Below, piece after piece: positions 11,668 to 30,355 of a stretch of DNA of 37,452 bases. The DNA comes from a virus. The stretch is taken from positions 1 through 37,452 of the IMG/VR virus record IMGVR_UViG_3300010370_000096; one strand, written 5' to 3'. The notes beneath the pieces are model-generated. The model made no database searches, was not told where the DNA came from, and saw nothing but the letters and a program-made list of their open reading frames with translations. Both the position numbers and the translations under genes were made by a program. Within the stretch, counting starts at the first letter, position 1, and the number at the start of each line of letters is the position of its first letter.

Positions 11668-12048
11668 CTATTCGAGGTTACGAAGCTTGTAGATGACTGA
11701 TAGATATGTTTCGATTGCGGTATCTATCAGGTTCTGAATAGCGGTGTCGGACTTGTCGCATGCTCTGTACCGCAGGTCTTCAACAGAGTTCATGTGGCTT
11801 TCAAGGATTGTTGCGGTTGCTGCAATTGTCTTTTTCCCTTTTGGGCATTCCAGACAAGGAATGTCGTCCATCAAGCCATACATGCCTTGATAGGCTTCTG
11901 CTATCGAATCGGCGTTGTCGATAATGTCATCATAAAATGATCCAAGCGCCATATGAGCAGCAAAACTGCCCGGGCCCGTTACCGCCAAGTGGCGACGATG
12001 AGCAAATTCACGGCTTAAAAACAAAGTTGCGATAAGTTGTTCCATCAT
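11668..12048 (-). CDS. Ferritin-like/Dps-like helical protein (DUF5856-like)
   Basis: The 126 residues appear to form a four-helix bundle. The N-terminal helix has MEQLIATLFLSREFAHRRHL and the next SFAAHMALGSFYDDIIDNAD, then IAEAYQGMYGLMDDIP. The spacing of His, Glu and Asp residues recalls Dps/ferritin-like proteins, and the whole resembles phage members of DUF5856. A metal or iron role is possible, but ligand residues are not proven. A strong AGGAGG site precedes ATG 12048, better than most in this operon, suggesting good expression at the operon end. It starts in a four-base overlap with the giant virion gene. Only three bases separate its stop from the convergent nuclease stop. Confidence 0.7.
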   Translation of the reverse strand: MMEQLIATLFLSREFAHRRHLAVTGPGSFAAHMALGSFYDDIIDNADSIAEAYQGMYGLMDDIPCLECPKGKKTIAATATILESHMNSVEDLRYRACDKSDTAIQNLIDTAIETYLSVIYKLRNLE

Positions 12049-15000
12049 TGGCGGCCTCCTAATTGCTGTTGACGCTGCTGAAGCATCTGACTAATTGGGT
12101 CATTTGGGAAAAGTTGCGGGTACATCAGCGGTACTTGTGGACTGCTTATTGGGGGCGGCGGCCCAACCCGAAGGTTTGGCATTCCCCTGGTTTGCGGTGC
12201 AGGTGGCATTTTACGCAACATCTGGGCTGCTGTGCCGGGAACCTCCGGAAGTCCTGCTGTAGCTGTCGGGACAGTCCTATCCTGCTGCGCCAACTTGGAA
12301 GCCTCAAGAGCCGTGATCCGGGCAGGGGAAGGAACGTATTTTGTTGGGGAAATGCCAATATCTTGTAGCTTTGCGGCTACTTTTTTGGCCTCTTCAGGCG
12401 TACCTACGCGGACCATGGATTTTGCAAATTCCGGGTCTTCCAGCGCTTTTGTAAAAATACGCTGATACAACTGGTTTTCAATTGATCCAGTCAGGCGCAA
12501 CAACATTGCCAATGCGCCGGTTTGCGGATTAATCCTGCCCACTGCAGCTTCACGCATCGTAGTCGTCAGGAATTGAATACCAGAACCAAATAGGCGCTTC
12601 ATCGCTTGATCAAGAGAATCAAACGCTGGAATCTGCCCCGTTATGTCGGAAAAGGCATTGACCCGACGCTGCAGATCGGCCAAGGTTTTGAGATCATTTA
12701 GGTGAGAAGTATTTTTAAACAGAACACTGAGTGACTTCTCGTTGTTCTTCAAGAAATTTTCCAACGCACCACCGGCTTGTGCGCCGCCTGTGGACAAATC
12801 CCAGACTTTACGGCGTAAGGCAGCCAAGTCATCCGGATTCTTTCCAAGCTGATCTACCAGCACCCTCATTGTTGCCGGGTCCTGTAGCGCCTTGGTCAGT
12901 ACTTGTTGCGGATCGGCATCTGGCCGAGAAGCTTTTGCAAGCAATGCATCAAGTTCATTGTTAGTGGCGTCCACTCGACGGCGGTCCAAGTCGCCCATGC
13001 GCTTTGCAAAATCATCAGCATTTGCTACTTCATCCCGCAGACGTTGCTGCACGGCAGGAGGCAGTGTCTCAACAATATTTTTATTGTTGTCAAGAATGCT
13101 GCGAATCTTTTTCGGGTCTACCAGACCGTCCTGAGTGACCGCACCCTTGGATCGGAGCCAATCAATAGCTCCACGGGTAAACATGTCTTCTTTAACAGGG
13201 TTGTTCCCCAGCGTCAAATCTAGTTGACGCAGATTTTCTGCCGATTTAAATGCTGTACGCATCAAATCTTCATTGGGCAAGAGGTAGTCTCTTCCCCCTG
13301 CTCGCTTAGATGTCAGAAGCAGCGGTAAGCGTTGTTCAAAGCCAGCGTTGTAATCATCCAGCACCATCTTCATGGCGCCGTATTCTTGATTGACTTTTGG
13401 AATAGAACCAAGAACTAGGTTTTCAACATCCTTATATGCGGCATTACCTCGATCAAGGCGCAATTGAGCATCCGTGGTCCGTGTTCCACGGCCCGATAGC
13501 TGTGAGCGGTTGAACGCATTAACAGCATCATGGCGGGAGCGTTGAGCGGCAGCCAACAAGTCCAACGCTTCCGGGATGTTCAGGTCTATCTTTGTTCCCT
13601 CTGCCGCAATCAATTCAGCATCTTTGCGGATTTGATCTGGGTTGATATAGACTGCGCGTCCTGGATAGCCAGTAGCTACCCGAATCTCGCCTTCCTTTTC
13701 CCCAGTTTTAAATCCAGCAGACTTGAGCAGGTTGGCTTCTCTAACGGATGCAATATCCTTTTTGCCCTTTGCTTTGGCAGGATTGACAAGCATACGAACG
13801 CTTTTTATTAACTCGTCCTGGAGTGCAGGATCAAGCTCAAACCCACCAAGCTGTTCTTTTATGCGCTGTTGGATTAGCGATTCAGTAGCATGATCAAGTG
13901 CCTTACGACGAGCCACATCTGTAGATGCAATCATGTTTTGCAAAATACGAATCGGCTCAGGCATTTCCCCGCCCTTGGCCCGTGTTGCACGAGCAGGGTT
14001 GTATTTTTCTACAAGCTTACGGGCAGCATCCTCGATGTCATAGGCTGGATACAACGATTTTCCTGCATCAGCGCCTTCACGCACGCGGGTGTCCGCCAGT
14101 GTGCCGTCAGGGTTTATAGCGCGTTTCATACCTAACTTGGACAAGACTCTTTGGCGCATTCCAAAGTCTGCTTCCATGTCCGCCAAAATCACTCCGCGCA
14201 GTTCATTGTTGAGCATGTCAATGTTCTGCGGGCCAAGGCGCTCGGAGATGGCAGCAACTTCTGCCTCAGTAAGGTCTTTCTTCTGACGAAGAAGATCATC
14301 AAACAGGGATTGACGTTCCTGTTGCGCGGCCAAGAAAGCTTCCTCAATTGGCTTGCGTGTAGCGGGAGAAAAGGAATCAAATAGAGAAGCCAGCTTTTGC
14401 TGGTTTTCGTTGATTCGAGCTTTTACTGATTCAAGTTCTTTGGGGCCCAGTTGCTCTAATAGCTCGGCTTTTCGCTTGAGCAGCGGGTTATACATTGTCC
14501 GCTCAGACACGTCGAACAAGAATCCCGCATCTGCAATTCTGGGATCAGCCAAAGCCGCTTCTAGCTGCTTGAGTGCTTGCTGCGCTTCGGGGCTTTCGCT
14601 GATCGGGCCGAATACCTGAGTCAGCTTGCTTTCCGCACGTTTTACCAGTGTGCGAGGAATGATGTTGATTAGGGGAAGCCTATACCCCTTTGGTAGCGAT
14701 TGAATGGCCTCATGTTCCACATTGCCAAGACCACCAGAAGCACCTTTGATTTTGTCGATGGTCCAGCCAGCGGCTTTTACGCTGGGAAGATTAGCAGCAG
14801 CAAAAGGGAGCCCCATAAAAGCAGCGGCTGGCAGCAAATCCTTGTACATACTTTTGTACGGATTGCTGTTATCAACATTTTCTTCCACTGCCTGACGCAG
14901 GCCCTCATAGCCCGCGCCAAATGCTACGTCCGTAGCGGCAGCAAGGCGGGGGTTCTTCTGGACAAAGCTGATTGCATCATTAGCAATTGACTTCAATAGT

Positions 15001-15428
15001 CCGGCCCCGGGTTCAGCAGCCCTGACCATCGGAGCGCTTTTAGCAGCATACGCAAGAATTCCTGTGAAAGGTAGCGTCCCACCAATGCCTTCGCCCACGG
15101 CACGAGCGTAACGCTCTTCACTGTTTACAGCGGCCCGTTGTCCTTTATTAAAGAACTTGGTAAGCGTAAAAACTTCTTCTGGATTGAGCCCTAGACCTTT
15201 GGCTATTAGCTTTGTTCCCGCATCTGGCAATGCAAACAACGCGCTGTTAAAGCCCCATGATAGGTTGTTGATCAGCCCCGCCGCAGTGCCTTCTGGAGAA
15301 GGCACGTCTACGCCAGTGGCTTTTCTAGGATCGACCTCTGTGGGCGTTCCTTCAACCCTGCCTTCAGTTCCAGAGCCAAAAAGATCAATTTTTCGTCCCT
15401 GTGCATCTTCGACGTAAAACGAGCTCAT
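12045..15428 (-). CDS. Giant internal virion/ejection-type protein (1127 aa)
   Basis: A very large, largely helical protein at the end of the virion gene block. It starts with a small hydrophilic segment, then Gly/Ala-rich hydrophobic stretches (about 50-230) that could insert into a membrane. Long charged helices with many Ala, Leu, Arg and Glu follow over 270-1000, then a proline- and glutamine-rich tail. No lytic transglycosylase motif is evident to me. Size, composition and location match podovirus internal core/ejection proteins (such as T7 gp15/gp16 by position, not by clear homology). GAGAGGC precedes the start. Function is inferred from context; sequence alone shows only a long helical protein. 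Confidence 0.72.
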   Translation of the reverse strand: MSSFYVEDAQGRKIDLFGSGTEGRVEGTPTEVDPRKATGVDVPSPEGTAAGLINNLSWGFNSALFALPDAGTKLIAKGLGLNPEEVFTLTKFFNKGQRAAVNSEERYARAVGEGIGGTLPFTGILAYAAKSAPMVRAAEPGAGLLKSIANDAISFVQKNPRLAAATDVAFGAGYEGLRQAVEENVDNSNPYKSMYKDLLPAAAFMGLPFAAANLPSVKAAGWTIDKIKGASGGLGNVEHEAIQSLPKGYRLPLINIIPRTLVKRAESKLTQVFGPISESPEAQQALKQLEAALADPRIADAGFLFDVSERTMYNPLLKRKAELLEQLGPKELESVKARINENQQKLASLFDSFSPATRKPIEEAFLAAQQERQSLFDDLLRQKKDLTEAEVAAISERLGPQNIDMLNNELRGVILADMEADFGMRQRVLSKLGMKRAINPDGTLADTRVREGADAGKSLYPAYDIEDAARKLVEKYNPARATRAKGGEMPEPIRILQNMIASTDVARRKALDHATESLIQQRIKEQLGGFELDPALQDELIKSVRMLVNPAKAKGKKDIASVREANLLKSAGFKTGEKEGEIRVATGYPGRAVYINPDQIRKDAELIAAEGTKIDLNIPEALDLLAAAQRSRHDAVNAFNRSQLSGRGTRTTDAQLRLDRGNAAYKDVENLVLGSIPKVNQEYGAMKMVLDDYNAGFEQRLPLLLTSKRAGGRDYLLPNEDLMRTAFKSAENLRQLDLTLGNNPVKEDMFTRGAIDWLRSKGAVTQDGLVDPKKIRSILDNNKNIVETLPPAVQQRLRDEVANADDFAKRMGDLDRRRVDATNNELDALLAKASRPDADPQQVLTKALQDPATMRVLVDQLGKNPDDLAALRRKVWDLSTGGAQAGGALENFLKNNEKSLSVLFKNTSHLNDLKTLADLQRRVNAFSDITGQIPAFDSLDQAMKRLFGSGIQFLTTTMREAAVGRINPQTGALAMLLRLTGSIENQLYQRIFTKALEDPEFAKSMVRVGTPEEAKKVAAKLQDIGISPTKYVPSPARITALEASKLAQQDRTVPTATAGLPEVPGTAAQMLRKMPPAPQTRGMPNLRVGPPPPISSPQVPLMYPQLFPNDPISQMLQQRQQQLGGRQ

Positions 15429-15441
15429 CGCTGCCTCTCAA

Positions 15442-17916
15442 TCACTGAATGGATGCGCCAAGGATACTTGAAACAGGCACAAGAACCTTTTCGCCATTTG
15501 GACGCTTGATGTAGACCGATGCCCCTGGCGCAGTGGATTTGCCTAGTGTCGATTGTAAGAAATTAGCCATCTTGGCTTTTTCTTCATCGTCATTGGGAAT
15601 CACAAACGGGTCGTTCTTGGTTCCTGTATTCGGCACTGACATCACTAATTCTCGCGTACCTATACCTAGCTGTCTGGCACGGTCATTCCACTCATTCTTA
15701 TACATCGTAGCCAACGAATTAAGAGTGGCTGCAGCAAGCTCAGGGTTCTTGAGCAATGCAGTCGGGTCCTTGACCGCAGTGCTGTTTTCCTGTGCCCATC
15801 TTTGCTGCTGCGTGGATAGGCGGCCTTCATTTGCCGTTGCTAAGCGACTGACGGAATCAAAGCCCTGACGCAGTATTGTCGCAGCCTTTTGCAGGTCAGT
15901 GTTGGGGCTGACCAACGCATCAGGCAGCACAGGGACAAAAATGTTATTTTTAATATCAGATACGAACGCTCCAGGGCCGTAGGCCTGCTGGACCACGCTC
16001 TTCATGTATTCAATTTTACTGAGATTATCATTGATCAGATTTATTTCCCCAACAATTTTTTCACGATCTTTAGGATTGGTTACTGTAATAGCAGTAGCTG
16101 ATCCTGCATCTCTAACGAATGGATTGCTCGTGTCGAAGTAGTTATAATTTTTTCGGATATCTTGGATGGTCGGATGATCCTGATTGAGGAATGTTCCAAG
16201 ATACGAGCCGTCTTTGCTTTCATAGTTGATCAGTCCTACTCCAGCATCTTTTGCAATAACCTGATTCTTCTCGGCCAACTTTCCCAGTAGTCTGTAATCA
16301 CCTTCCAGCGCTTTAAGCTTCAAGGCCTGCAGGAACTTGTCTTCTGTAGTGACATCCGTAATGGCCTGCTGCAGTGTTGCCGTTTTGCCCTTGAGTGCCA
16401 GTTCGCGCTCTTGTGCGGCAATAGCTGCCATGCCCCTTGGAACACCAGCAAATGCTTCGCCCACCGCCATGGCTGCAGTAGGTTTTCCAATGGTTGCAAG
16501 TTTTAGCCCTGCTTCAGACAACAAGAGCAGTGCGTTCATTTTCGCCGCTTCTTTGTCCGAGCCAAAAATCTCCTCAAACAAAGGTGCGTATTCTCCTTGC
16601 GCTTCTTTAATGCGCTCCATCTTTGTCTTCGGCCCCTGCTTTTCTTGAGCAGCTTGCGTCTTAGAGATAAAGTCACCAAGAGGCATAGTAGAAGGGGACA
16701 GGCCCTCCCCCTGAGCTCTTTCTTGCTCTGGGGTAAATGCAGGCGCTTCACCTTGAGCTATTTCCTGTTCTGGAGTCGCAGAAAGTTTTCCTGCCCCGCT
16801 AAAAGGATCGCCAGAATATTCATATAAAACAGGGTTAAACGGAATTGGCAGTTTCTTGCCTTCTGGTCCTTGCTGCGAGGTCCAGTCTTCACCTTTCGGG
16901 GCAGATATGTCATACGTCATTGATGGAGGCTTGCTCATCAACTCCAGACGAGCAGCGCGATCTGCTGCTGTATCAACAGGGATCTGATTTACCAAATCGG
17001 ATTGTTCTCCTGCCCCGTCCCCGCCACGAGTAGCCAATCCATATGCTGGGACACTGCCAAAAGCAGCCGTTGATTTAAGAGCGCCCGCGAGTCGTGGGTA
17101 TTGATCAACAAACCTACTTGCTCCCTGCATCATTCCTTGCGTAAATGTCGGGTACAGCAGTTCCCCGCCACGAGCAATCTGCTCAGCCGTATATCGACCA
17201 CCAGGACCCCGAACATTTTCCAAAAACGGCTGGGTCATCGAAGGCTGCATAAACATACGGCCCAGAGCGGCGTTTGCCGCACCGGCTTTGTCGCTCATAA
17301 ACTGAGCAGCACGCATGGCCGGGTTGACAAAAGCGCCTAAGAAAGCATGCATCGGTGGCATGCCATCCGGGGTCGGCGGTTCTACAGCCCCGCCGTGTGC
17401 ATATTGTTGTGGGGCACTAGGCCCCTGGGAAAAAGGGGGAGCACTCTCCATGCCCTGGGGCATCGGAATACCGCCTTGGGGCATGGCCGCGCCGGGTTGC
17501 TGGGGGGCAGGTGCAGGCGCACCACCCATTGGGGGCTGTCCGCCCGGGGGCATCATTCCTTGGGCCTGGGGCAATGCACCGATGCCCCCGCCTTGTTGCT
17601 GCATAGCCAGTTGTGTCTGCAGCATCGCCAAGACTTCTGGCGGCGTATCCATCGCAGCTTCTTCGCCAACCATCTGAGCAAGTTCCTGATAGCGAGCGTC
17701 AACAGAGCGCATGTCACCACGCAGATTGTTCATCAGAATCTCTGGATTCTGGGGAGTCCTGGACATGGCGGGCATTTGCTCCATCTCAGCATTCTCATCC
17801 CGATCCATCTCACCTTCCATCTCATCCATGTCAAACCCAGACATGATGCCCGAGTTGCGCGACTCCTTTGACAGAGGCATCGCAAACATTGCTCGTTTTA
17901 GGATTTCTGTTTTCAT
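15442..17916 (-). CDS. Large virion protein with Pro/Gly/Met-rich N-terminal part (824 aa)
   Basis: Residues 25-50 are acidic and Met-rich, and 105-185 are made of Pro, Gly, Gln, Met and Ala with little secondary structure, ending in YAHGGAV at 172-178. Helical small-residue segments follow (190-290). Residues 366-376 (YSGDPFSGAG core) and two copies of a TPEQE-AQGE motif (381-390 and 395-409) recur in the 865-residue neighbour. After 440 it is more regular, with coiled helices and a beta-rich end. No enzyme motif is seen. Position among ejection-type genes and the shared motifs suggest an internal virion or tail-core component. Confidence 0.72.
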   Translation of the reverse strand: MKTEILKRAMFAMPLSKESRNSGIMSGFDMDEMEGEMDRDENAEMEQMPAMSRTPQNPEILMNNLRGDMRSVDARYQELAQMVGEEAAMDTPPEVLAMLQTQLAMQQQGGGIGALPQAQGMMPPGGQPPMGGAPAPAPQQPGAAMPQGGIPMPQGMESAPPFSQGPSAPQQYAHGGAVEPPTPDGMPPMHAFLGAFVNPAMRAAQFMSDKAGAANAALGRMFMQPSMTQPFLENVRGPGGRYTAEQIARGGELLYPTFTQGMMQGASRFVDQYPRLAGALKSTAAFGSVPAYGLATRGGDGAGEQSDLVNQIPVDTAADRAARLELMSKPPSMTYDISAPKGEDWTSQQGPEGKKLPIPFNPVLYEYSGDPFSGAGKLSATPEQEIAQGEAPAFTPEQERAQGEGLSPSTMPLGDFISKTQAAQEKQGPKTKMERIKEAQGEYAPLFEEIFGSDKEAAKMNALLLLSEAGLKLATIGKPTAAMAVGEAFAGVPRGMAAIAAQERELALKGKTATLQQAITDVTTEDKFLQALKLKALEGDYRLLGKLAEKNQVIAKDAGVGLINYESKDGSYLGTFLNQDHPTIQDIRKNYNYFDTSNPFVRDAGSATAITVTNPKDREKIVGEINLINDNLSKIEYMKSVVQQAYGPGAFVSDIKNNIFVPVLPDALVSPNTDLQKAATILRQGFDSVSRLATANEGRLSTQQQRWAQENSTAVKDPTALLKNPELAAATLNSLATMYKNEWNDRARQLGIGTRELVMSVPNTGTKNDPFVIPNDDEEKAKMANFLQSTLGKSTAPGASVYIKRPNGEKVLVPVSSILGASIQ

Positions 17917-17925
17917 GTCTTGCCT

Positions 17926-19371
17926 TTAAAGAATGCCTGCTTTGTTGGCTGCAGCCGCCGCGCTTACCCCGGCAATTCCCAAACCAGCAACTTGTTGGAA
18001 TGGACTTGGAGTAGCCTGTGTGCCTGTAATACTTGCCATCTGTGAGGATGGAGCACCTTTGTAGATGTCCGATAGGAAGGCCATCTGCTGATATGGCTGC
18101 ATGTTTTGCTGCAGTTCGTTCTGACGCGCTGCATCCAATTCTGATTGCAGTTGACGTTGTTGTGCTTGTCCAAGGTTGTACAGGAAGTTTGTGTCCTGCT
18201 GGCCCAGCGTTTGTTGCTGTTGCCCCAAAGCAGCCTGTTGCATGCCGATATTGGCCTGTTGCGTGCCCAAAGCGCCAAGGCCCTGTGCCATTTGAGAGCC
18301 AATACCGAACTGCTGAGAAGCCAGATTGCCAATACCCTGTGCCATCTGTTGACCCAACTGGGACTGCTGGCCGTAGATATTGGCCTGTTGACTGCCCAAG
18401 TTTCCATAAAGGCTCGACAAATTTGCCAAATTGCTTGCCAAATTGCCCTGCAGACCGGCTGCGCCCTGACCTAACTGCGCTTGCTGGAGAGCTTGCTGCC
18501 CAAAAAGTCCGCCAATACCTTGGTATCCCTGAGCCTGAGCAAGTTGTCGCTGTTGTTGCTGTTCAAATGCTTGCTGAGCCTGTTGAGCAGCATTTTGATA
18601 ACCCTGCTGCAGACCACCAACAATAGCGGCATTGCGCTGCTGAGCAAGATTTTTCTCCAATTCAGCACTTTCTACAGCTTGCCTGCCGCCGCCAAAAGCC
18701 CCAGCTTTTACTGCCTGCGCTTGTAGCCCTTGCCTAGTAATGTCCCCCTGACGGTTGATCTGACGAACAGCTTCATCAATTACCTGTTGCTGGTAAGGAT
18801 TCATGAAACCCTGCGCCATCGTAGGGGCATACATCTGCCCAGCACCCTGCAATGTGCCCACACCTTGGCGTAGCGTGTTGAGCGCCTCGCCCATATTGGC
18901 CTGAGAGTACTGATTAGCCATCTGCTGAGCGGCAGTCAGGCCCTGGGCCCCTTGAGCAATCAGCGGGACGCCTTGAGTCACCAAGTTTGCAGCCCCGCCC
19001 ATCTGCTGAATCGGAATGGCTGCCTGATTCATGGCAGCTTGCGCCCCGGCAAACTGACCACGGGTATCGGCTCCGCGTAAAATGTCGGCGGCTTCACCCA
19101 GAGTTTGTCCTCCGGCAGTGACCCCTTGAGTAGCTGCCGTCATATACGGCTGATATGCGCCAATACCAGCACGACCCATTTGTAGGGCAGTAAGTTGATC
19201 CGGGCTCATGCCCGCAATTTCATAATCAGGAGTCAGGTATTGACCGGAAAGTGCAGCTAGGTTGGTGGCATCTACAAGGGATTTTGCAGACCCCATCAGG
19301 CCTACTTTTGCTGCTTCAATATCCGGGGCTTCCCGGACTATCTGCTCTTGAATGCTAGTTGGATCAGCCAT
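17926..19371 (-). CDS. Gln/Ala/Gly-rich repetitive virion protein (481 aa)
   Basis: A low-complexity protein dominated by Gln, Ala, Gly and Leu. Residues about 270-420 consist of degenerate repeats built on Gly-x-x-Gln-Gln-Ala-x-Ile-Gly-x-Gln and related units; examples are GSQQANIYGQQ and GTQQANIGMQQ. These would make long amphipathic helices or a fibrous core. The C-terminal 60 residues are distinct: a Met-Gln-Pro-Tyr-Gln-Gln-Met-Ala-Phe-Leu-Ser-Asp-Ile-Tyr-Lys-Gly segment and then a small-residue hydrophobic tail. I recall this C-terminus as conserved in aquatic phage virion proteins. Only two bases separate it from the upstream stop. It is probably an internal core/ejection protein (inference). 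Confidence 0.72.
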   Translation of the reverse strand: MADPTSIQEQIVREAPDIEAAKVGLMGSAKSLVDATNLAALSGQYLTPDYEIAGMSPDQLTALQMGRAGIGAYQPYMTAATQGVTAGGQTLGEAADILRGADTRGQFAGAQAAMNQAAIPIQQMGGAANLVTQGVPLIAQGAQGLTAAQQMANQYSQANMGEALNTLRQGVGTLQGAGQMYAPTMAQGFMNPYQQQVIDEAVRQINRQGDITRQGLQAQAVKAGAFGGGRQAVESAELEKNLAQQRNAAIVGGLQQGYQNAAQQAQQAFEQQQQRQLAQAQGYQGIGGLFGQQALQQAQLGQGAAGLQGNLASNLANLSSLYGNLGSQQANIYGQQSQLGQQMAQGIGNLASQQFGIGSQMAQGLGALGTQQANIGMQQAALGQQQQTLGQQDTNFLYNLGQAQQRQLQSELDAARQNELQQNMQPYQQMAFLSDIYKGAPSSQMASITGTQATPSPFQQVAGLGIAGVSAAAAANKAGIL

Positions 19372-19373
19372 TT

Positions 19374-21971
19374 TTACGCCCTTTGTGCATTGCTTTCAAG
19401 CTGATGCATCAGCTTGTACATTTTTTTAGCGCCATCTCGACGGCTTCCATTTCCCATGCCACGAACTGCTTTGGCAGTCATGACAAATTCTCCGTCGGAA
19501 AGCATTGCAGGGATGGAATCAGATTTCTCTGTTCCAGGACCGCTGATTTGTCCGTTCATCCTAGGATACCCTCCTTGAGCCAAAGCTGCAATACCTTTAT
19601 CGGTAGAAAATGCAGTTGCTGGAGTCGTAACGGATGTTGCAGGTTTAAGAATATTTGCTATTCCAGAAAGATAGCTTTGCTGCCCCTGCAACATGGGCGC
19701 ATAGGCCTGATTCAAGGCAGCAAGCTGGGCGGCTCGATTGCGAGCACCAAATTGCTCATCACCATAACTTCCAGGCGAGGTGCGGCCTTCTTGTTGGCCC
19801 CATTGAGTGAAGTGCTGTTTCGCAAACTCAGACTGAGTTAAAGGCGAGTTAGAACGATAGTATTCCGCCTGCACATCGGGATTAGCCTGGAAATACGAAT
19901 TGATCGGGTTGACTTCCGGAGCAAGTGCACCGAGGCCCGCATTGATGTTGGCGTACATCGTGCCATAGCCCTGAGCTCGGCGCATGGCTTTTTGTTGAGC
20001 AACCGCGTCACGAGCTTGTCGCTGTTGAGCGGCTAAGGCGTCTGCTGCTGCTTTATCCGCTGCTGCTTTATCCGCTGCTGCTTGATCTGCTGCAATCTGC
20101 TCAGCGGATTTTTGCACAACGCCGCCATCCTCATATTGTTGGATAGAATAGTTAGGGTAGTTAGGATATAGCAGGTTGGGGTACATCAATGCTGTGTTAT
20201 ACGGCTGAGCAATTTTGCCCGATCCCATTGCACCTTGAGGTGTAGTGTAAATAGGTGGTAATTGCATGATGCCAGAGGGCTGCATGACCCCTGGGGTCAA
20301 AGACCCATAGGTTGGCGTGTTGTATGTCGGCAAACTTCCTGTAAAACTTCCAGCAATGGGTTCGCCATACTGATCGTATTGAACACCCGGCAGACCCTGA
20401 ATGTAATTTTGGCGTTGAGTGCCTTCTTCCCGTATACGTTGAGCAGCAGGTTTGTACAGAGATTTCGTTATTTGTCCGGGTTCCACGGGCTTTTTATCAA
20501 ATCCGCCAGACAGGGCCATGATCCCCAAGCCTGTGCCCACGGCAGGGCCGTAAGTGGAAAGTATCCCAGGAGTGGCGGATTTAACAGCAGCATCATAAGC
20601 CCTTATCTGTTGCCATTCCGGAGCTCCAGCTGCCTTGGCAGCATCTGCTGCCGTTTGCCCAGCTTGCTGCGCCTTGGCTGCCCCTTCAGCTTGTATTTCT
20701 GAGGGGGAAATCTTGCTCCACATATCCTTGGTTTTATTCCAAGCATCACTTCCAAACTGCTTGGCTTGCTCCCACGGACTTTGTGGCATCGATGGCGACA
20801 ATCCCTGTCCCTGTGCAAGTTCCTGCGCTGGAGTTAGTTCAGGAAAATTAGGGGAACCGGCAGGCGCGGCCTGAACTGGCGGAGCAACAGGCGCAGCTTT
20901 TTTCAAAGCATCCTGAGGGCTAAAAACAGTTGGCTGAATATTACTTACGGACTCTGGGGTAATGGGAGCAGAAGGTACAGACGAAGCACCACCAAAAGGA
21001 TCACCTGCGTACTCAGGAGGGACAACAGGAGCCGCCTCTGCTCCGGGTATGGCAGGAGCGCCGGGGGCCGCGCCTTCTGCTCCGGGGGCCATGGCTCCCG
21101 GGCCCATGAACTGGCTCATACCCCAGTTTGCCACGCCCGCGCTAATACCGGCAAGTACACCGGACCTCAGAGCATCACCAATGTTTCCGCCAGCAAGGAG
21201 CGTGGACCCCGCACCGCCGACAAAACCGCTAACGGCAGCCAAAGCAAGGGGAGAGCTAACTCCAAGAAAGCTGGCTGCCGCTGGGCCGAGGACCATGCCA
21301 AGGGCAATTGTAGTTACGACGCGCCCTACGCTGCTCTTTGCAAAATCGCTTACAGCCTTGCCAATACCGCTAATTGCGTCGGAAATAGCACCAAGGGGGT
21401 TGTCAAAAAATCCAAACTCCGGCAATCCAGTGGCAGGGTTAATGGTCCCCGAACCGCCCATCCGTTTCAGCATCCGTGCTTCTGCAGGATTAATGTGGGC
21501 CAAAATGGTATCGCCATTTCTGCCTTGAGACTGAATTGCTTTGGCAATCGGCTTTAGCTCAGCAATGCCACCTTTTGCAAAACTCTGCACTTTTTCGCCA
21601 GCGCCAGCGCCAGAAAGCTGATCAAGGGCCATGTTCAACGCGCCAAAGAAGCTGGGATCAAAGCGTTCCGGCAAAATGTCCGCAGGAATACCGGCTTCTA
21701 AAGCAGCCTGTCGAATTTCCGCATATCGCTCAGGATTAGAAAGAATTTCCTGTAAAAGCCTATCCAGAATATTTAAAACTTCTGGCGGAACCTGAAGCTT
21801 ATTTAATTCGGATTTAAATTTATAAACGGCTTGGGGATCGACCTGCGACGCCCCGGACAACAATTCATTAGAAATTTGTCCTGGTGCAGCGTTTTGGCGA
21901 ATTTGATCAAGGATCGCCATTTGATCAGGAGAAGGGGCGGTGGCAGGCATTGCCATTGGGATGTTTGCCAT
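19374..21971 (-). CDS. Large virion/ejection-type protein with tape-measure-like C-terminus (865 aa)
   Basis: TAAGGAAA precedes the ATG. Regions in order: a helical N-terminus (15-125); FAKGGIAEL at 131-139; a Gly/Ala-rich hydrophobic region at 195-290 able to cross a membrane; a disordered Pro/Ala stretch; YAGDPFGGAS (321-330) and TPAQELAQGQGLSPS (380-394), both shared with the 824-residue protein. A tyrosine/proline-rich part and an AADKA pentapeptide repeat (about 627-645) follow. Near the end come SDSIPAMLSDGEFVMTAKAV and a basic helical tail. The SDGE-V-TAKA pattern appears in many phage tape-measure and virion proteins. Because the other tail genes look podoviral, I read it as an ejection/internal protein; a tape measure remains the alternative. 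Confidence 0.75.
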   Translation of the reverse strand: MANIPMAMPATAPSPDQMAILDQIRQNAAPGQISNELLSGASQVDPQAVYKFKSELNKLQVPPEVLNILDRLLQEILSNPERYAEIRQAALEAGIPADILPERFDPSFFGALNMALDQLSGAGAGEKVQSFAKGGIAELKPIAKAIQSQGRNGDTILAHINPAEARMLKRMGGSGTINPATGLPEFGFFDNPLGAISDAISGIGKAVSDFAKSSVGRVVTTIALGMVLGPAAASFLGVSSPLALAAVSGFVGGAGSTLLAGGNIGDALRSGVLAGISAGVANWGMSQFMGPGAMAPGAEGAAPGAPAIPGAEAAPVVPPEYAGDPFGGASSVPSAPITPESVSNIQPTVFSPQDALKKAAPVAPPVQAAPAGSPNFPELTPAQELAQGQGLSPSMPQSPWEQAKQFGSDAWNKTKDMWSKISPSEIQAEGAAKAQQAGQTAADAAKAAGAPEWQQIRAYDAAVKSATPGILSTYGPAVGTGLGIMALSGGFDKKPVEPGQITKSLYKPAAQRIREEGTQRQNYIQGLPGVQYDQYGEPIAGSFTGSLPTYNTPTYGSLTPGVMQPSGIMQLPPIYTTPQGAMGSGKIAQPYNTALMYPNLLYPNYPNYSIQQYEDGGVVQKSAEQIAADQAAADKAAADKAAADALAAQQRQARDAVAQQKAMRRAQGYGTMYANINAGLGALAPEVNPINSYFQANPDVQAEYYRSNSPLTQSEFAKQHFTQWGQQEGRTSPGSYGDEQFGARNRAAQLAALNQAYAPMLQGQQSYLSGIANILKPATSVTTPATAFSTDKGIAALAQGGYPRMNGQISGPGTEKSDSIPAMLSDGEFVMTAKAVRGMGNGSRRDGAKKMYKLMHQLESNAQRA
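20041..20093. repeat. 15-bp tandem repeat within the 865-residue virion gene
   Basis: About 3.5 copies of a 15-base unit (TCCGCTGCTGCTTTA with single changes) lie in direct order. On the coding (minus) strand each encodes five residues of an Ala-Ala-Asp-Lys/Gln-Ala series, resembling the Ala/Lys helices of TolA-like proteins. Slippage here would change copy number without breaking frame. Confidence 0.8.
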
Positions 21972-26726: not shown

Positions 26727-26858
26727 TTAAAAAGTAATTGAACCTGACGATGTCCACTTATAAATGCGGTATCCGCCAGTCACAGTGATCGTGGGCGATC
26801 CAGTAGTAGACGTGGCCGCGCTGTAAGTGTCGGAATAACGGATGATTACGATGCCGGA
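26727..26858 (-). repeat. Adhesin C-terminal cassette, copy 1
   Basis: The last 43 codons and stop of this adhesin gene are paralogous to 28022-28153 and 29189-29320. The protein is highly conserved (SDTY, GYRIYKWTSSGSITF), while the DNA has drifted most in this copy. Confidence 0.75.
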
Positions 26859-27668
26859 ACCACCGTTGCCGGGAGTTGGCACGTTGGACGCCACTCCTCC
26901 ACCGCCCCCACCGCCGGTATTAGCTGTTCCAGAAGTTGCTTGCCTCGCCGCGTCGTTGTACGTCGCACCTGTGCCACCACCACCATTACCGCCAGCACCA
27001 CCACCTGTTCCCGTATCCCTTCCAGAACCACCGCCGCCGCCAGCGTAGTAAGTTGCAGTGCCGCTGATGGAAGACTGAACCCCGACCCCGCCAACGCCAC
27101 CAGCACCGGCAGAAGGAGAATTCCCGCCAACAGCGCCAGCTCCGCCCCCGCCGCCTGCAGCATCACCCGCGATCGTGTCGCCAGAACCTCCGCGATAGCC
27201 CTGCCCAGAAGTTCCTGCACCGTAGTTCGATGCAGTTTCACCAGAGCCACCACCCGAACCGCCGGTTGCACCAATTCGAGAGTTTGAACCGCCATATCCA
27301 CCACCAATTGCGGTGATGCTGCCAAATACAGAATTGCTGCCGGATGTTGAAGTGTTGCTACCCGCTCCGGTGCCACCTGCCCCAACAGTCACGGTAATTG
27401 GCGAACCAGCGGTTACCGAATACCCGCTAGAGGTCAATAAACCTCCTGCGCCACCACCGCCAGAAAAGTTGGAACTGTTAGAGCCACCACCGCCTCCACC
27501 AGCAACAACAAGATATTCAACAGATGTAGGGCCGTTATACGGCTGCGGCCATGCACCCTGCTTTTGCAAAGCGGCCTGCTGAGAAAGAGTCCACAACCCC
27601 GGAGCCGCAGACGATGTCGGCGTCGGAGGCGCTTTGGTTATGTAGCCACCGGGGTATTGCTCACTCAT
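26727..27668 (-). CDS. Glycine-rich tail fibre/adhesin (313 aa)
   Basis: Start set at ATG 27668, which overlaps the upstream stop as ATGA; an earlier ATG at 27683 would overlap further. After a short N-terminal part with a GLWTLSQQ segment comes the VEYLVVAGGGGGG motif. A long Gly/Ser/Ala/Thr domain (about 60-270) with many Gly triplets follows, probably packed polyglycine-type helices as known from phage adhesins. The end (SGIVIIRYSDTY then YRIYKWTSSGSITF) is a cassette shared with the genes at 28022 and 29189. This suggests a receptor-binding surface protein. Unlike those two it has no FN3 domain. Confidence 0.8.
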   Translation of the reverse strand: MSEQYPGGYITKAPPTPTSSAAPGLWTLSQQAALQKQGAWPQPYNGPTSVEYLVVAGGGGGGSNSSNFSGGGGAGGLLTSSGYSVTAGSPITVTVGAGGTGAGSNTSTSGSNSVFGSITAIGGGYGGSNSRIGATGGSGGGSGETASNYGAGTSGQGYRGGSGDTIAGDAAGGGGGAGAVGGNSPSAGAGGVGGVGVQSSISGTATYYAGGGGGSGRDTGTGGGAGGNGGGGTGATYNDAARQATSGTANTGGGGGGGVASNVPTPGNGGSGIVIIRYSDTYSAATSTTGSPTITVTGGYRIYKWTSSGSITF

Positions 27669-28012
27669 GCCAACTCCATCCAAGAAGTTGTGATCTCATC
27701 CCAGCGATATTGCTTGCCATCAGTCGGCATGGCAACAGGAGGCTCCCAAATGCAGGTTTGCTCATTTAGCCGCCAACTTTTGAATGGGCGTTGCGGAATA
27801 AATGCATCACGGTATGAGTCGTAGTGATAGCCGATCCCAGCATAATTTTTGCGTAAAGGAGTTCCTCCATTTAAGTGAACTCCACCCTGCGTGTTGTAGG
27901 ACGTTTGAACCCAAGACGAAGGATCGCCAAACAGCCCAGAGTCGATGACATCCTGTTCAGCAACAATCACTTGAGTGACAATTCCATCTTCAACTTTTGC
28001 AAAGTGCGACAT
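27665..28012 (-). CDS. Conserved virion-associated protein (115 aa)
   Basis: The N-terminus reads MSHFAKVEDGIVTQVIVAEQ, followed by SWVQTSYNTQGGVHLNGG and a tyrosine/proline-rich tail with a GIGYHYDSYRDAFIPQRPF segment. This is a well-known family in marine T4-like and other aquatic phages. It is usually found among tail or baseplate genes and sometimes annotated only as virion protein. TAAGGAG stands before the ATG. Its stop overlaps the adhesin start. It may serve as an adaptor for the glycine-rich fibre or as a fibre-tip piece (inference). Confidence 0.8.
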   Translation of the reverse strand: MSHFAKVEDGIVTQVIVAEQDVIDSGLFGDPSSWVQTSYNTQGGVHLNGGTPLRKNYAGIGYHYDSYRDAFIPQRPFKSWRLNEQTCIWEPPVAMPTDGKQYRWDEITTSWMELA

Positions 28013-28021
28013 TTTTTCTCC

Positions 28022-28153
28022 TTAGAAGGTGATTGAACCTGATGAAGTCCATTTGTAGATTCGATAACCGCCAGTTGTGGTGATTGTTGGTGAACCTGTG
28101 GTTGAAGACGCAAGAGGGTATGTATCTGAATAACGGATTATGACAATACCAGA
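28022..28153 (-). repeat. Adhesin C-terminal cassette, copy 2
   Basis: This gene's final 43 codons and stop share most residues with the copies at 26727 and 29189. DNA identity is visibly high with the 29189 copy, for example TCCATTTGTAGATTCGATAA on the plus strand in both. Confidence 0.8.
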
Positions 28154-29179
28154 GCCCCCAGCGCCGCCAGAAACTGTAATGCTATCTTGACTACCGCCGC
28201 CTCCGCCACCTCCCGTATTAGCCGTTGCTGCACCACCATTACCGTCGCTTGTTACTGCGCCGTTACCGCCTCCTCCAGAACCGCCAAGACCACCTGTACC
28301 ACCATCTCTTGAGCCGCCGCCACCGCCGCCAGCATAAGTTACTGAAGAGCCAGAAATTGACGACGCAGTGCCATTACCGCCTGCGCCTGCTACAGACCCT
28401 GAACCATTAGCGCCTACGGCACTTGCACCGCCACCACCGCTACCGGGGTAAGGAGAACTTGTCGAAGCGTTACCGCCGTTGCTACCTTGCCCAGCCGTCC
28501 CCGACCCAGCGCCTGCCCCACGATAGTCTGACCCCCCACCAGAACCACCAGATGCACCTGCGCCGCTGCCAGTGTTGTATCCGCCACCGCCACCACCTCC
28601 AGTAGAAGTAATAGAACTAAATACAGAGTTATTTCCGTTTGCACCTCGGTTTGCAGTAGCCGCGCCACCACCGCCAACAGTTACAGTAATCGCGGAACCC
28701 GCAGTAACGGCAAATCCTGCTGCAGTTCTATAACCTCCAGCACCGCCACCGCCCATACCAGCACCGTTAGCGCCTCCGCCACCACCACCACCGCCAGCAA
28801 CCACAAGGTATTCAACGGTAGATGGTGCAGAAGGCGCGACTGGCGTAACACTATTTGATGCCGCACTTGCTGGGCCAGTCCCGCTTGCATTAGTAGCCGT
28901 CACGGTGAACGTATATGAAGTCCCGTTGGTAAGCCCTGTGACAACAATCGGAGAAGCTGATCCTGTTCCAGTAAGCCCACCGGGGCTAGAAGTAACTGTG
29001 TAGCCAGTAATTGTTGATGGGTAACCCGTTTGAGTTGGCGCAGTAAAAGTGACAGATGCTTGTGCATCCCCTGCTGTTGCCGTCCCAATTGTTGGCGCTC
29101 CCGGTTTAGACGGCCAAAGGCTTGCCGCAATTGCTTGCAACTGCTGTCGTGATGTCCAAAGTCCACTGAAATTTGGCAT
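28022..29179 (-). CDS. FN3-containing glycine-rich adhesin (385 aa)
   Basis: Order: a short N-terminal segment with GLWTSRQQLQAIAASLWP; one fibronectin type III domain at about 27-113 (PGAPTIGTATAGDAQASVTF through the VTGLTNGTSYTFTVTATNA core); then VEYLVVAGGGGGGGG and a glycine-rich domain to about 340; then the shared C-terminal cassette. FN3 domains in phage tail proteins help bind carbohydrate surfaces. AAGGAC precedes the start. It is one of three neighbouring paralogues with the same ending, most probably from duplication. It is likely a receptor-binding protein, but the ligand is unknown. Confidence 0.85.
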   Translation of the reverse strand: MPNFSGLWTSRQQLQAIAASLWPSKPGAPTIGTATAGDAQASVTFTAPTQTGYPSTITGYTVTSSPGGLTGTGSASPIVVTGLTNGTSYTFTVTATNASGTGPASAASNSVTPVAPSAPSTVEYLVVAGGGGGGGGANGAGMGGGGAGGYRTAAGFAVTAGSAITVTVGGGGAATANRGANGNNSVFSSITSTGGGGGGGYNTGSGAGASGGSGGGSDYRGAGAGSGTAGQGSNGGNASTSSPYPGSGGGGASAVGANGSGSVAGAGGNGTASSISGSSVTYAGGGGGGSRDGGTGGLGGSGGGGNGAVTSDGNGGAATANTGGGGGGGSQDSITVSGGAGGSGIVIIRYSDTYPLASSTTGSPTITTTGGYRIYKWTSSGSITF

Positions 29180-29188
29180 AGATCGTCC

Positions 29189-29320
29189 TTAGAAGGTGAT
29201 CGAGCCACTGCTCGTCCATTTGTAGATTCGATAACCGCCAGTCGTTGTGACTGTTGGCGAACCAGTGGTTGAAGATGCTAATTGGTATGTGTCTGAATAA
29301 CGAATAATTACAACTCCAGA
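29189..29320 (-). repeat. Adhesin C-terminal cassette, copy 3
   Basis: The third copy of the 43-codon ending, with SGVVIIRYSDTY in place of SGIVIIRYSDTY. Together with copy 2 it provides direct repeats about 1.17 kb apart, long enough for homologous recombination. Confidence 0.8.
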
Positions 29321-30355
29321 GCCTCCCGCCGCTCCATCTGCGCCCGAACCCCTAGCTCCGCCACCGCCTCCGCCTGTATTAGCTGTGCCAGCAGTTCCCG
29401 ACCCGTTATCAGTGCCAGCATAACCAGCACCGCCACCTCCTAAACCACCCGCTCCACCACTTGCTCCAAGGCGAGTTCCTCCACCGCCACCACCGCCGTA
29501 ATAAGTTCCAGAGCCGCTAGGCCATATAACACCAGTTCCCCCAGCGCCGCCGTCGCCGTTTGATAGAGCCGCGCCGCCAACACCGCCAGCGCCACCCCCG
29601 CCTCCAGACGCACCATCTCCAGCAGTCGCTTGAGCGGCTCCGCCTGCATAACCTTCGACTGGAGAATACCCACCAGCGTTACCAGAGCCGGGAGCGCCAA
29701 AAGTACCACCAGTGTTTGTTGTACCGCCACCTCCAGAGCCTCCGTTGCCTCCCGGTTGAGGCGAGCCTCCACCGCCGCCACCACCCCCGCCGCCTGTTGT
29801 GTTAATTCCAAATGCGGAAGATGTGCTTCCATTATTACCGGGGCCACTTGTAGTTTGTGTTGCCCCACCAGCACCAACAGTAATTGTGTATGCCGTACTT
29901 GCGGTAACAGAAGCAGTGCCAGACCTTAAACCACCAGCACCACCGCCGCCACCAACATATTTGCCAGCACTACCGCCGCCAGCAACAACAAGGTATTCAA
30001 CAGTCGAAGGAGTGGTCGGAGCCGCAGGAGAAAAACTACTAGTCGCAGAACTGATTGGGCCAGTACCATAAGCATTGGTCGCGGCCACGGTTGCTGTGTA
30101 AGTGTTGCCGTTCGTCAGCCCAGTCACAACAATTGGAGAGGAAGCGCCAGTGTTTGTGAAAACAGCACCGCTCGACGAATCCTTAACAACAACAATGTAT
30201 GAAGTGATTGCCCCGCCACCTACATTAGCAGGAGCGGTAAAGGTCACAGACACTTGCGCATTTCCAGCCGTGGCTGTGCCAATCGTTGGAGCGTCAGGGG
30301 TCTGTAGCGGGAAGTAGGAAGCCGTCAGAATAGCGGCTTGATAGCGCATCGACAT
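29189..30355 (-). CDS. FN3-containing glycine-rich adhesin, paralogue (388 aa)
   Basis: It has the same plan as the neighbour at 28022: a short start, an FN3 domain (about 20-110, opening PDAPTIGTATAGNAQVSVTF), VEYLVVAGGG, then a glycine-rich region with runs such as GGGGGGGGGG, and the shared cassette at the end. The N-terminal leader (MSMRYQAAILTASYFPLQ) and glycine-domain loops differ, as expected if loops set binding specificity. AGGGAC precedes the ATG. Probably a tail-surface receptor-binding protein; it is not certain that all paralogues occur on one particle. Confidence 0.85.
   Translation of the reverse strand: MSMRYQAAILTASYFPLQTPDAPTIGTATAGNAQVSVTFTAPANVGGGAITSYIVVVKDSSSGAVFTNTGASSPIVVTGLTNGNTYTATVAATNAYGTGPISSATSSFSPAAPTTPSTVEYLVVAGGGSAGKYVGGGGGAGGLRSGTASVTASTAYTITVGAGGATQTTSGPGNNGSTSSAFGINTTGGGGGGGGGGSPQPGGNGGSGGGGTTNTGGTFGAPGSGNAGGYSPVEGYAGGAAQATAGDGASGGGGGAGGVGGAALSNGDGGAGGTGVIWPSGSGTYYGGGGGGGTRLGASGGAGGLGGGGAGYAGTDNGSGTAGTANTGGGGGGARGSGADGAAGGSGVVIIRYSDTYQLASSTTGSPTVTTTGGYRIYKWTSSGSITF

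Follow-up and report, generated by a model that had tools for sequence, protein, structure and literature searches.

A paired linear motif in the predicted-disordered linkers of two neighbouring presumed virion proteins, found in a single phage lineage

The ejection proteins of P22 (gp7/gp20/gp16) and T7 (gp14/gp15/gp16) are large, poorly conserved and partly disordered, and their genes follow one for a virion structural protein. Short linear motifs in disordered linkers are a general class of protein sequence elements. The gene block described here, A-C-B-D, belongs to a 37,452-base virus record that was analysed over its whole length and is called the window below. The block resembles the P22 and T7 systems in these protein properties and in this gene position, and, like podophage ejection genes, it brings several large proteins together close to a tail-stabilisation-like gene. 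Functional domains have been swapped among ejection proteins according to a review (PMC8954989), whereas the feature shared by A and B is a short linear linker peptide and not a domain. Searches with A and B gave neither a significant fold match nor a sequence match to a solved ejection protein. A search of the open-licence literature found no report of the motif described below or of any linker motif shared between ejection proteins.

Within the window, the four genes occupy the minus strand in the order A (865 aa, 19374..21971), C (481 aa, 17926..19371), B (824 aa, 15442..17916) and D (1127 aa, 12045..15428), and upstream of them are encoded a 701-aa virion structural protein (phrog_3287) and a 219-aa protein. 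Relatives were collected from viral contigs (the best 80 of 394 for B and the best 80 of at least 583 for A); after profile annotation, 117 loci had both an A and a B of more than 500 aa, and 94 non-redundant ones, the window included, were kept. The order A-C-B-D on a single strand was found in 82/82 annotated loci with all four genes (59 of the 94 non-redundant phages), and the length of protein C ranges from ~280 to 1405 residues among relatives (L042, L127 and others) while the gene order stays constant. The corresponding genes of phage DSL-LC04 (OR003939.1) are annotated as a stabilization protein, two hypothetical proteins, a tail tape measure protein (A), two further hypothetical proteins (C and B) and a DNA transfer protein (D), with the block flanked by the stabilization and DNA transfer annotations. 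DSL-LC04 comes from Dishui Lake and has been assigned to a proposed family, 'Dishuiviridae' (PMC10611076).

When 28 proteins of the window were scanned with PHROGs, protein C gave a weak match to phrog_4287 'DNA ejection protein' (E 4.6e-4, 139 residues), and at E 0.01 proteins A, B and D had no match to any ejection family. No match to portal, terminase or major capsid families was obtained among the 28 scanned proteins, and the record is for this reason probably incomplete. Elsewhere in the window, three close minus-strand genes (26727-27683, 28022-29179 and 29189-30355, encoding 318, 385 and 388 aa) match phrog_2295; their upstream parts differ, their C-terminal 41–47 residues are nearly identical (89–93% to the 385-aa protein), and the DNA of the 385-aa and 388-aa genes is 82% identical over ~150 bases.

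A C-terminal motif of the form GPGT..SDSIPA.LSDGEFV is a usual feature of tape measure proteins. Protein A has this motif (GPGTxxSDSIPAxLSDGEFV) in common with the tape measure proteins of PDB 8rk3 and 8zdo; the tape-measure matches span ~30–65 residues only, those from PHROGs are confined to residues 772–842, and the paired motif lies elsewhere in A. The C-terminal motif falls within residues 793–840 (19452-19595), reads GPGTEKSDSIPAMLSDGEFVMTAKAV and is mostly invariant in a 38-row alignment of A, many rows of which were recruited by that very motif.

The paired motif consists of EYxGDPFxGA (element 1) followed by TPxQExAQGxGLSPS (element 2) and occurs in both A and B. In A, element 1 (EYAGDPFGGA) covers residues 320–329 (20985..21014) and element 2 (TPAQELAQGQGLSPS) covers residues 380–394 (20790..20834); in B, element 1 (EYSGDPFSGA) covers residues 366–375 (16792..16821) and the full element 2 (TPEQERAQGEGLSPS) covers residues 395–409 (16690..16734), all on the minus strand. 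The original prediction, made from the letters of the DNA, had given these positions and residues for both proteins, and they are correct. It had also counted element 2 twice in B, which holds for the N-terminal half of the element. A half copy (TPEQEIAQGE, residues 381–390, 16747..16776, minus strand; pattern TPEQExAQGE) starts 14 residues before the full element 2 and reads TPEQEIAQGEAPAF, with GLSPS missing; each protein thus has a single full element 2, and B has an additional copy of the N-terminal half. Nothing in B corresponds to the 50 residues that separate the two elements in A, and protein C, encoded between A and B, has no motif copy.

AlphaFold2 models of the two proteins, which rest on alignments of 47 and 38 sequences and have mean pLDDT values of 65 and 66, predict a disordered linker with pLDDT<50 in each protein: residues 287–407 of A (20751..21113, minus strand), which hold both elements, and residues 329–410 of B (16687..16932, minus strand), which hold element 1 and both the half and the full copy of element 2. 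The earlier claim of disordered surroundings is thereby borne out as a prediction. In B, a predicted helix (LGDFISKTQAAQE, residues 413–425, 16642..16680, minus strand) follows directly downstream of element 2; in A, a predicted helix at residues 408–421 (20709..20750, minus strand) likewise lies downstream of element 2, which ends some residues short of the predicted helices 400–403 and 408–421, and the longest predicted helix of A is 623–683. A larger domain common to A and B, of which the motif might have been a part, was rejected: profile–profile comparison of A with B by hhalign gave a probability of 1%, and the motif does not belong to any detectable common domain. Foldseek searches with the A and B models gave no match at E<=0.001, an absence that is weakened by the low model confidence, and a weak similarity of B to XaxB at sequence level (E 0.011 and 0.018) was not adopted. 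In one relative with a similar B linker (L016), a different stretch takes the place of the motif region between the PIP part and the LGxFI part.

Linkers rich in Pro, Ala and Gln do produce spurious matches, and a chance or compositional resemblance of two such linkers would be one explanation of the motif. In its favour, raw BLOSUM62 local alignment of A with B across the 94 phages, in which Pro/Ala-rich linkers match one another, ranks the window 19/94 and was set aside. Composition-weighted ungapped element scores were adopted after raw BLOSUM62 proved dominated by Pro/Ala-rich stretches. On this scale, element 2 alone scores 31.0 bits, a value reached by 1/1500 sampled cross-phage A–B pairs and matched or exceeded in 8/8742 when all cross-phage pairs are taken, some of them low-complexity. 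Chained together, the two elements score 54.6 bits, far above the maxima of 42.1 in 500 cross-phage A–B pairs and 37.9 in 400 block-shuffles, a value attained in 1/94 same-phage A–B pairs, which is the window's own. BLASTP of A against B gives the motif stretch at E 3e-4 and the next best match at 0.21, making it the sole significant A–B match in the phage, and under composition adjustment the motif stretch alone is significant. On these scores a chance origin of the A–B match appears very unlikely, and we give next to no credence to composition as the explanation. A general matching of A and B linkers within the same phage was also rejected, since same-phage and cross-phage A–B pairs average 18.3 and 18.3 bits with no general excess; matched A–B pairs are not generally maintained within a phage.

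Over both elements, A and B have identical residues at 20/25 positions, and their nucleotides are identical at 21/30 positions of element 1 and 31/45 positions of element 2. The shared residues are encoded by identical codons in 6/20 cases, where random synonymous choice by the phage's usage predicts 6.95. These counts agree with the claims of the original prediction that the DNA had diverged while the residues were kept and that the two copies do not stem from a recent duplication. The half and full copies of element 2 within B are likewise at the random level (3/9 identical codons, 3.7 expected), and element 2 of A against the half copy of B gives 4/7 (2.6 expected). Because codon identity is at the random level, the A and B copies are either old or independent.

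A search for the motif in related phages, which had been suggested together with the original prediction, refutes the idea of a conserved motif. Apart from the window, none of the 94 non-redundant phages (93 relatives) has the strings GDPFxGA, QExAQG or GLSPS in A, B or C, or in D where its sequence was available (59/94), and three more relatives recovered by a scan of genome contigs all lack the motif strings (one of them, L173, matched B over residues 1–167 only). Exact back-translated patterns for QExAQGxGLSP and EYxGDPFxGA were scanned against 2.9 million viral contigs and returned, among relatives, only one record that is 99.96–99.99% identical to the window, is the same phage, and has zero differences in A, B or C. 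The single other EYxGDPFxGA match (L014) lies in a protein that is unmatched by the profiles of A to D. A scan of viral contigs for TPxQExAQG gave 25 further contigs; in the ORFs read there, neither the DGEFV nor the PEILMN signature of A and B was present, by what is a string test only. Chance-like TPxQExAQG matches occur in proteins of L176 and L178 with a FAQGGI...LIGEAG stretch that looks tape-measure-like.

Since the motif is missing from A, B and C of the examined relatives and the pattern scans gave no other A- or B-type protein, it is not a fixed part of an ejection complex. The nearest B relatives are about 50–57% identical, and no closer ones were found in viral contigs or genome contigs; given this distance, closer, unsampled relatives may carry the motif.

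Repeats and short peptides are found in A and B of the wider family. The best internal repeat reaches at least 31 bits in A of 36/94 and in B of 13/94 phages, simple repeats and repeated domains counted, and the 48 best repeats with a period of at least 10 range in codon identity from 20/20 (L021) to near random (L102, 16/42 against 12.8 expected). An FAxGGI-type motif is present in A of 91/94, B of 34/94, C of 0/94 and D of 1/59 phages, with far fewer in shuffles of A and B. On the minus strand of the window it reads FAKGGI at residues 131–136 of A (21564..21581), LAQGGY in a second copy at residues 797–802 of A (19566..19583) and YAHGGA at residues 172–177 of B (17386..17403). A DATxxQGSLAK-type peptide occurs in A of 11/94 phages, in several of them slightly upstream of the helix; a derivation of element 2 from this peptide or from the FAxGGI motif gave suggestive alignments only and is not claimed. 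The A linkers of L010 and L102 contain tandem YAGMDLSSAQG repeats with near-perfect residues, for which the L102 codon count is the one given above; codons compared between L010 and L102 are identical in 4/16 cases (4.6 expected), and inside L010 they are more alike (34/55 against 16.3 expected).

Two further peptides are likewise found in A as well as in B. The DPLGxFI peptide is found in B of 17/94 and A of 3/94 phages, and its DPLGDFI form shared between A and B has identical codons in 3/12 (4.2 expected) and 2/8 (3.3 expected) cases; because these codons are random, the sharing may be convergent or old. The AAQPNDFA..IDAQAP block is present only in A of L027 and B of L072, where 15/18 residues and 43/54 nucleotides are identical and identical codons number 11/15 against 5.9 expected (binomial P 0.008, uncorrected and one of nine comparisons). 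This DNA-level likeness suggests transfer of a linker block between an A gene and a B gene, and in both proteins the block sits immediately before the region that corresponds, by alignment, to the helix of the window. When best segments were required to have at least 7 residue types and at least 30 bits, 4/2500 cross-phage A–B pairs qualified, compared with 0/2500 in each of five other protein combinations and 0/1200 shuffles in each of six, and these family-wide A–B matches rest on few modules from related phages. At 28 bits or more, the counts are 6/2500 for A–B, 1/2500 for A–C and 2/2500 for B–C, a level near noise because the shuffled A–D and C–D controls reach 2/1200 each, and the family-wide A–B excess is weak.

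The explanation we prefer, with slightly less than even confidence, is that a lineage-specific linker peptide is present in both A and B, likely through gene-to-gene copying, and is selected for docking to a common partner. A and B would be large internal virion proteins of an ejection-protein-like block, each with a long, disordered linker that changes fast and runs up to a predicted helix, and such linkers would hold short peptide modules that vary from phage to phage and are occasionally common to A and B. In the window's lineage, one module would have reached both linkers at a site shortly upstream of the helix, with copying from one gene to the other as the most likely route, and element 2 would then have been half-duplicated in B. 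Synonymous sites would have been randomised afterwards while the residues stayed, on which ground the peptide is probably under selection. Its most likely role would be that of a short docking segment that brings A and B to a common partner, or to one another, in the course of packaging or ejection. For the window's pair the copying is inferred, because no DNA trace connects its A and B copies. The selected short motif of the original prediction survives in weakened form: retention of residues while synonymous sites changed fits selection on a short peptide, and absence from the examined relatives refutes a motif conserved in the family. As in short linear motifs generally, the motif is short, lies in a disordered context and keeps its residues while the DNA diverges, here within one lineage; it differs from them in lacking conservation across the examined relatives, and its docking role is putative.

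Two separate gains of the motif, one in A and one in B, must be allowed for. Both linkers might have acquired the same peptide independently, with a common partner (a virion protein or a host factor) as the selecting agent and with no copying, a history we regard as unlikely although a serious contender. It would account for codon likeness at the random level between A and B and between the two B copies, and it has a parallel in the near-perfect peptides with near-random codons of other family linkers, namely those inside L102 and between L010 and L102. Old copying followed by purifying selection, however, yields the same codon picture, and two elements in the same order with so many identical positions are much to gain twice; moreover, the AAQPNDFA..IDAQAP block, another A–B block in the family, does retain a DNA trace. 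An old linker copy that has no function and has not yet decayed would suit linkers that are highly variable and repeat-prone, as well as a motif not found in the examined relatives, but residues so largely kept with codons at the random level are unexpected without constraint, and we consider such a relic improbable.

We hold it to be decidedly improbable that the motif marks a processing site, at or near which a viral or host protease cuts A and B in an exposed linker during maturation or ejection. The 25 positions over two elements exceed what a protease site usually needs, and the motif is missing in relatives. Among the 28 PHROGs-scanned proteins of the window, the sole peptidase-family match, a weak one, is that of the endolysin, although a protease may be encoded beyond the ends of this probably incomplete record or be supplied by the host. 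What speaks for processing is the position of the motif in the predicted-disordered linkers of two adjacent presumed virion proteins, together with the statement in the review cited above that a host enzyme may have to cleave P22 gp20 (PMC8954989).

It is poorly understood how, in short-tailed phages, the large internal proteins come together within the head and the envelope, and their linkers are readily dismissed as filler. A broader reading, which we consider doubtful and put forward as speculation from sequence, is that the disordered linkers of A and B act as interchangeable sockets and that phages of this family swap docking peptides between them, just before a conserved helix. If this were true, one partner could address both A and B, and peptides would be kept while their codons diverge, which would also shield the repeats from recombinational deletion. 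The A/B linker peptide with its random-level codons and the other peptides that recur in A and B provide concrete short sequences for binding tests, and, should these peptides bind nothing, the case would still illustrate the gain and loss of linker repeats.
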